Shown in pieces: positions 10,583 to 13,537 of a stretch of 33,184 nucleotides of DNA. The notes under the pieces are model-generated. The model made no database searches, was not told the DNA's origin, and worked only from the letters and a program-made list of their open reading frames with translations. The first letter of the stretch is position 1. The number at the start of each line of letters is the position of its first letter. Origin of the DNA: Promethearchaeota archaeon (GTDB lineage Archaea; Asgardarchaeota; Lokiarchaeia; Sigyniarchaeales; SOKP01); NCBI GenBank assembly GCA_004375715.1, contig SOKP01000121.1, positions 1 through 33,184 of the forward strand. Reading direction: 5' to 3'. A program made the position numbers and the translations under genes.

Positions 10583-10717
10583 GCCAAGGTGGCGTAGCCC
10601 GGAACATGCTGGAAACTTCCAGCAGTGGGTAAGAACGCACTAGACTGAAGATCTAGGTATCGAGGGTTCAAAATACCCTTTGCGAATCGCAACGGTATGG
10701 AAGTCCCTCTCTTGGCA
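10583..10717 (+). tRNA. tRNA-Phe (GAA) with two probable non-canonical introns in the D-loop and T-loop
   Basis: Acceptor GCCAAGG/TCTTGGC (10583-10589/10710-10716), D-stem GCGT/ACGC (10592-10595/10635-10638), anticodon stem CTAGA/TCTAG with loop CTGAAGA (GAA at 10647-10649), T-stem GAGGG/CCCTC (10662-10666/10705-10709). D-loop and T-loop are 39 and 38 nt unless ~27- and ~31-nt insertions are removed. Confidence 0.85.
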
Positions 10718-10804
10718 TTTTTTTTCACTTGATAAACTATCACTTGATAAACTTCTCCCTAAGTTTAAATTTTTCGAAGCTTTAATAATATAGGAGATGA
10801 TTTA

Positions 10805-12112: not shown

Positions 12113-13537
12113 ATGAAGGGGTACGACGACACGATTAAAATAATGGTTTTTGGAGATAATAGTGGCGAAACAACATCTCTTAGTGTTAGGTACATTTCTG
12201 GATTGTTTTTGGACGATTTGAGACTTACGATTGGCGTAGATTTTTATTCTAAGACCCTAAATCTTGACGATAAAAAAATAAAGCTACAAATATGGGATTT
12301 TGGTGGAGGAGAGAGATTTCGTTTTTTACTTCCAACTTATGCCAGAGGTGCTTGTGGTGGTTTATTTGTTTATGATATCACAAACTCTTCATCGATCGCT
12401 CATATTGACGATTGGTTGAGCGCTCTTAGGCAAGAAATTAGAGCAGAAGATATTTTTCCCATTTTAGCAGTGGGGATTAAACCCGATGAAATTTGTGAGC
12501 GACAAATCACAGCAGAAGAGGGTATAAAAATCGCCAAGTCGAGGAATCTAAATGGCTTTATCGAGTGCAATCTTAAAACAGGAGAGAATGTTGAAAAGGT
12601 TTTCGAGGCTTTAATAAGACTGATATTAGCGGATAAAAACTATAACATAAAGAAAGCTAAAAGGATGTTTGAATTTTCTGTAATTGATTTCGAATTAAAA
12701 AAGAGAAATAGAAAATCTTATCCAAAGAAGCTCTCTAAGCCACCAATACCATCTCCACCTCTACCTCTAAAACCGCCCGGAGCCCCAGCAATGGACCCTC
12801 AAGGTAAAGAATCTTATCCATATCCAATTTTCAATTCACGCTTTTTAAACTGGTCTAGAGGTGCTCGATGGACACGTTGCCCGAATTGTATGAAGAAATT
12901 TTCAAAAGAGAAGTTCTATAATCATTCCTGTAAAATAAAGCCAGAGGATCCTGTGAACCAGCATCGAAAAAGTTCAGTGAGATTGAGTGGAGCTAAAAAG
13001 GGAGAGTTAAAACATCTATTTTCAAGAAGAGCGCTATCAAGAAAAAAATCAAGATCTGCTTCAGATTCTCAATCAGGGAGAATAAATAGATCTACCGCTA
13101 TAGTTGGAGTTAGTATCGACCCCCAATTAAAAGGTGAAGTCCAGGCTTTCATAGAATGGATTAAAGATAGCGAGGGTCTTTCGGGATACATCAATTATTA
13201 TCTTTCGCAAAACAATCAATCTATAATTTCAGAGCTTTCAAAAATATATGCTGAGTTAAGGCAAATAATCGAAGAATCTTTAAAGAGCTCAAAGTCCTTT
13301 AATTTTAATGATTCTGAGAACATTGGAGATGAAAATTATGACGGTGATGATTATTTACCATATCCTTATATCTTCACTCATCCAAAACCCCCTGACGATT
13401 TCGAACCGGCACCTCAATCACAACTTCGTGCCCCCTTAAAAGAAAAAGACTCTAAAGATGAAATTAGTTGTCAGTATTGCGGGAGGGAGCTTACGAAAGA
13501 AGAACAATTAACCCATTCCTGTCAAAAGAAGCCATAA
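12113..13537 (+). CDS. Degenerate Ras/Rab-like GTPase domain with two C-terminal CxxC...HxC zinc-finger-like motifs
   Basis: LTIGVDFYSKTL, LQIWDFGGGERFRFLLPTYARGACGGLFVYDIT and ECNLKTGENVEKVF match Rab-like signatures; P-loop GDNSGETTSL; fingers CPNCMKKFSKEKFYNHSC and CQYCGRELTKEEQLTHSC. Confidence 0.85.
   Translation: MKGYDDTIKIMVFGDNSGETTSLSVRYISGLFLDDLRLTIGVDFYSKTLNLDDKKIKLQIWDFGGGERFRFLLPTYARGACGGLFVYDITNSSSIAHIDDWLSALRQEIRAEDIFPILAVGIKPDEICERQITAEEGIKIAKSRNLNGFIECNLKTGENVEKVFEALIRLILADKNYNIKKAKRMFEFSVIDFELKKRNRKSYPKKLSKPPIPSPPLPLKPPGAPAMDPQGKESYPYPIFNSRFLNWSRGARWTRCPNCMKKFSKEKFYNHSCKIKPEDPVNQHRKSSVRLSGAKKGELKHLFSRRALSRKKSRSASDSQSGRINRSTAIVGVSIDPQLKGEVQAFIEWIKDSEGLSGYINYYLSQNNQSIISELSKIYAELRQIIEESLKSSKSFNFNDSENIGDENYDGDDYLPYPYIFTHPKPPDDFEPAPQSQLRAPLKEKDSKDEISCQYCGRELTKEEQLTHSCQKKP

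Follow-up and report, generated by a model that had tools for sequence, protein, structure and literature searches.

A Lokiarchaeia tRNA-Phe gene interrupted in its D-loop and T-loop at two predicted bulge-helix-bulge junctions

A tRNA-Phe(GAA) locus interrupted in both its D-loop and its T-loop raises the question of whether it is a working gene whose inserts are removed from the precursor, or a damaged or unusually shaped copy. The locus lies at positions 10583-10717 (+ strand) of contig SOKP01000121.1 from Promethearchaeota archaeon (GCA_004375715.1), within the 33,184-nucleotide stretch of DNA that was analysed as a whole (hereafter, the window). The interrupted tRNA-Phe is confirmed as a real feature of this DNA. 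Indeed, the four stems, the GAA anticodon (10647-10649), a 39-nt D-loop region and a 38-nt T-loop region described in the original prediction are all present in the sequence, as is the uninterrupted canonical site 37/38. The source genome comprises 3.07 Mb in 320 contigs (the window is contig C172) and is 83.7% complete, and every named genome with the same tRNA-Phe core carries the label Candidatus Lokiarchaeota or Lokiarchaeia. Searches of this incomplete assembly with both the unspliced and the spliced sequence matched this single locus; no second tRNA-Phe was found with either query, including the second intact tRNA-Phe(GAA) gene that had been named as evidence against the original prediction.

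Some orthologues have no intron at the first site and some have none at the second; where uninterrupted, their D-arm reads GTAGCCCGGGAACGC and their T-arm GTTCAAATCCC. Comparison with them fixed the exon ends of the window gene exactly, giving the following anatomy:

10583 to 10602, + strand: exon 1, with the 5' acceptor strand, the 5' strand of the D-stem and the D-loop as far as G19
10603 to 10632, + strand: intron 1, 30 nt, D-loop site 19/20, AACATGCTGGAAACTTCCAGCAGTGGGTAA (from intronless orthologues, the MFE fold and a shuffle test)
10633 to 10672, + strand: exon 2, with the remainder of the D-arm, the anticodon arm, the variable loop, the 5' strand of the T-stem and T-loop bases TTCAAA
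10673 to 10703, + strand: intron 2, 31 nt, T-loop site 59/60, ATACCCTTTGCGAATCGCAACGGTATGGAAG (from orthologues without an intron here and a shuffle test)
10704 to 10717, + strand: exon 3, with T60, the 3' strands of the T-stem and acceptor stem and the discriminator A
10718 to 10725, + strand: a run of eight T directly 3' of the tRNA (from the sequence)

Exon 1 is identical to the spliced consensus over its 20 nt, in agreement with the comparative alignment; exon 2, which carries the GAA anticodon, matches it at 100% over 40 nt, and exon 3 is likewise an exact match. The T run is plausibly an archaeal transcription terminator, as predicted from its sequence. The spliced product would be 74 nt long, with D-loop AGCCCGGGA and T-loop TTCAAAT, and it agrees with the intronless segments of the orthologues; that is, removal of the introns restores a standard tRNA. 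These comparisons also revise several details of the original prediction. Its D-loop intron of 27 nt fell short by 3 nt, its T-loop intron had the right length (31 nt) with a cut position off by 1 nt, and its 77-nt product with T-loop TTCAAGT becomes the 74-nt molecule given above.

By the standard rule, the splicing endonuclease EndA cleaves between the second and third bases of both 3-nt bulges in a bulge-helix-bulge (BHB) motif. At the corrected boundaries both window junctions form a strict 3-4-3 BHB, and the relaxed motif previously thought necessary is not required. Around intron 1, the central helix is GCCC/GGGT, the bulges are GG^A and AA^G, and the intron helix consists of AC/GT and TGCTGGA/TCCAGCA. 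Around intron 2, the central helix is TTCA/TGGA, the bulges are AA^A and AG^T, and the intron helices are TACC/GGTA and TTGCG/CGCAA. When the introns were shuffled, a central helix together with the observed inner helix arose at P = 3.5e-4 (intron 1) and P = 2.5e-4 (intron 2). The unconstrained fold of the precursor contains the cloverleaf and both extra helices (-50.9 kcal/mol, z = -3.9, none of 200 shuffles being as good). The D-loop BHB forms in this free (MFE) fold, whereas the T-arm prefers an open internal loop, the strict BHB lying 2.3 kcal/mol above the MFE. For this reason the T-loop junction, with its energetically weak TTCA/TGGA helix, looks like the weaker predicted EndA substrate.

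The same geometry was found beyond the window. A full 4-bp central helix in register was present in 43 of 59 distinct tRNA-Phe introns, falling to 0-3 when the register was shifted by 1-5 nt, and shuffled introns gave a mean of 0.86 and a maximum of 4. The alignment that placed the introns of relatives gave a bonus to central helices, so that ambiguous boundaries lean slightly towards this outcome; nevertheless, the contrast between 43 and 0-3 was judged too large to be explained by the bonus alone.

The genome also encodes candidate splicing machinery, namely two PF01974 (EndA) genes and a PF01139 RtcB ligase. The EndA alpha subunit (200 aa) aligns to Aeropyrum pernix EndA (3p1z) with the Tyr/His/Lys catalytic regions kept, and its Crenarchaea-specific loop (CSL) reads FFGAPLGISKPR, compared with YYGQPLDVEKPR in A. 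pernix, with a Lys at the K44 position by counting. In the second EndA subunit, the sequence of which ends at the contig end, the catalytic His is absent by inspection. A CSL-like motif was recognised in 26 of the 30 EndA loci examined, the other four being unmatched by the ORF pattern used. Crenarchaeal EndA is an (alpha-beta)2 enzyme with a CSL, the function of which has been described (PMC6379350). The splicing endonuclease, the type of which the original prediction had proposed to check, proved to include a catalytic alpha subunit with a crenarchaeal-type loop and Lys, and by its sequence it matches the type credited with broad intron specificity.

Taken together, the orthologues, the BHB geometry and the splicing genes support the core of the original prediction, a tRNA-Phe interrupted once in the D-loop, once in the T-loop and not at 37/38. 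The locus is most probably (probability about 0.95) a functional, essential tRNA-Phe(GAA) gene with a 135-nt precursor, whose two BHB introns would be cut by EndA and whose exons would be joined by RtcB. The computed basis of this reading comprises sequence anatomy, comparative exon boundaries, BHB geometry and the presence of EndA and RtcB genes, from which we infer transcription, cutting and ligation. The locus would be transcribed as the 135-nt precursor; EndA, presumably an alpha-beta heterotetramer, would recognise the D-loop and T-loop BHBs, cut their bulges at the positions given by the rule above and set free introns of 30 and 31 nt; ligation of the three exons by RtcB would yield the 74-nt tRNA. 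A split or permuted tRNA gene was also considered and rejected, the three exons being colinear within 135 nt.

Standard finders do not recognise the unspliced gene, which was missed by ARAGORN and scored below threshold with the Rfam tRNA model (18.8 bits). After removal of both candidate BHB introns, ARAGORN reported tRNA-Phe(gaa); a few other intron pairs also satisfied the program, and the boundaries therefore rest on the comparative evidence. To these two tools a likely functional tRNA is invisible, and default tools will undercount Asgard tRNA inventories. The failure of standard finders, together with the incompleteness of the genome (83.7%), is what one would expect of a tRNA pseudogene with insertions accompanied by an intact tRNA-Phe elsewhere. 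Such a reading is nonetheless very unlikely: the stems and the anticodon are all intact, the searches turned up no second copy, the inserts sit in BHBs, and every located orthologue in the family carries inserts while the exons are still about 94% identical.

A gene interrupted in both arms is also typical of its own genome, as indicated by D- and T-arm introns in other tRNAs. A search with the Rfam tRNA model, which is biased against interrupted genes, yielded 26 tRNA loci including that of the window, of which 13 look intronless and 13 interrupted, a division made partly by inspection. Among them, tRNA-Lys(TTT) has an intron at 59/60, as in the window tRNA-Phe, and the D-arm is interrupted by introns in the Leu(TAA), Ser(GCT), Pro(CGG) and Gly genes. 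At another locus (L007, G000:C285:16862-16951), ARAGORN calls tRNA-Arg(tcg), and removal of an 18-nt BHB intron at 37/38 yields tRNA-Thr(cgt). Downstream of tRNA-Phe in the window, at 12113-13537, a 474-aa protein with a Ras-type small GTPase-like domain and C-terminal Cys/His motifs was recognised by eye, of a type that we take to be typical of Asgard genomes.

In its Lokiarchaeia family, all 19 genomes in which tRNA-Phe was located have one to four introns in each gene, mostly non-canonical, and most have two to four at sites other than 37/38. The sites used are 15/16, 19/20, 22/23, 30/31, 37/38, 51/52, 52/53, 53/54, 58/59 and 59/60 (standard numbers, converted here from the mature index by subtracting one beyond position 17). 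A tRNA-Phe without introns was seen only in G037 (L041), which lies outside the family. The canonical 37/38 site is occupied in only two of the 19 genomes (G030 and G031), and the view that two non-canonical introns without one at 37/38 would be unusual does not hold: such a gene is ordinary in this lineage, not a new kind.

Exons and introns differ in their conservation. Exon identity between species is 0.93-0.94, and intron identity is 0.58 at 15/16, 0.60 at 19/20 and 0.57 at 59/60, with shuffled controls at 0.47-0.51; the 30/31 intron is better conserved (0.72). These patterns bear on the idea that the inserts are retained in the mature RNA, unspliced, as extended D and T arms. The stable hairpins into which they fold, stacked on the arms, would suit such a molecule, but intron positions and sequences vary freely among sister species while exons do not, and the junctions fit the EndA substrate geometry in register. 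Moreover, the D-loop and T-loop together make the tRNA elbow, which would be disrupted, and retention is accordingly rated as even less probable than a pseudogene. Self-splicing introns of the group I type, known in some RNA genes and conceivable inside a tRNA gene, can be practically dismissed, as 30-31 nt is far below the few hundred nucleotides of the conserved group I core, with its catalytic function, and the window has BHB geometry and no Rfam intron match.

Several further observations were made on the family genes. Two tRNA-Phe genes, L039 (G024:C378) and L050 (G031:C200), appear to hold four introns each, one above the maximum of three per archaeal tRNA gene given in the tRNAscan-SE 2.0 paper (PMC8450103). 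One of the L039 introns interrupts the T-stem on which the next BHB depends, which suggests that its introns may be spliced in order. One genome has two tRNA-Phe genes (G007:C61 and G007:C71), each with a 15/16 and a 59/60 intron, the intron sequences differing. The 13-mer TTGCGAWTCGCAA (window 10680-10692) was, among the family genomes searched, confined to T-arm introns of tRNA-Phe: it lies at site 59/60 in the window's genome (G000) and in both G007 genes, and at 53/54 in G034:C6:516037. Such related hairpin cores at different T-arm sites raise the possibility that introns could move or slide between sites. A speculative interpretation, which we consider rather unlikely, is that the tRNA-Phe gene of this family is a hot spot at which introns are still being gained and lost, with about 10 sites, combinations varying by species and up to four introns per gene. 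Within the archaea nearest to eukaryotes, the differing intron sets of close relatives offer a natural system for measuring how tRNA introns are gained and lost.

Same-genus genomes without an exon-1 match were searched by an anticodon-arm pattern, the mature sequence, an upstream motif and conserved gene order next to the adjoining 179-aa gene (synteny), and tRNA-Phe was found by these means only in G022. The contig stops within the 179-aa gene in G012 and about 320 nt past it in G010, and breaks within tRNA-Phe in G017, so that assembly breaks are a likely cause of the missing gene in these three genomes. In G002, G003 and G008, which are 97-100% complete, tRNA-Phe was not found by sequence, pattern or synteny, and assembly breaks at the locus do not account for its absence; a more heavily split gene, divergence or an assembly gap may be involved.

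A literature search found no paper on these Lokiarchaeia tRNA-Phe introns, supplements and subscription journals being outside its reach; three known systems offer comparisons. In the red alga Cyanidioschyzon merolae, tRNA-Ile(UAU) has introns in the D-, anticodon and T-arms (PMC9602550) and thus shares with the window gene the combination of D-arm and T-arm introns within one tRNA, but it is a eukaryotic gene, and the EndA of this alga reportedly has no CSL (PMC6379350). Non-canonical tRNA introns are also known from the Thermoproteales (Crenarchaeota), where, as here, several short BHB introns occupy non-canonical sites of one tRNA (PMC8450103, PMC4090602), although the organism of the window belongs to an unrelated phylum. 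The closest likeness is with Atabeyarchaeia and Freyarchaeia, in which 92-95% of tRNA genes contain introns, non-canonical and often several per gene (PMC11291895). The window tRNA-Phe resembles these in having multiple introns at non-canonical positions; it comes, however, from a different Asgard lineage, and site variation within Lokiarchaeia and the EndA type were examined here. Our results thus extend the published dense non-canonical tRNA introns of Asgard archaea to a Lokiarchaeia genus, alongside an EndA of the type credited with broad specificity.
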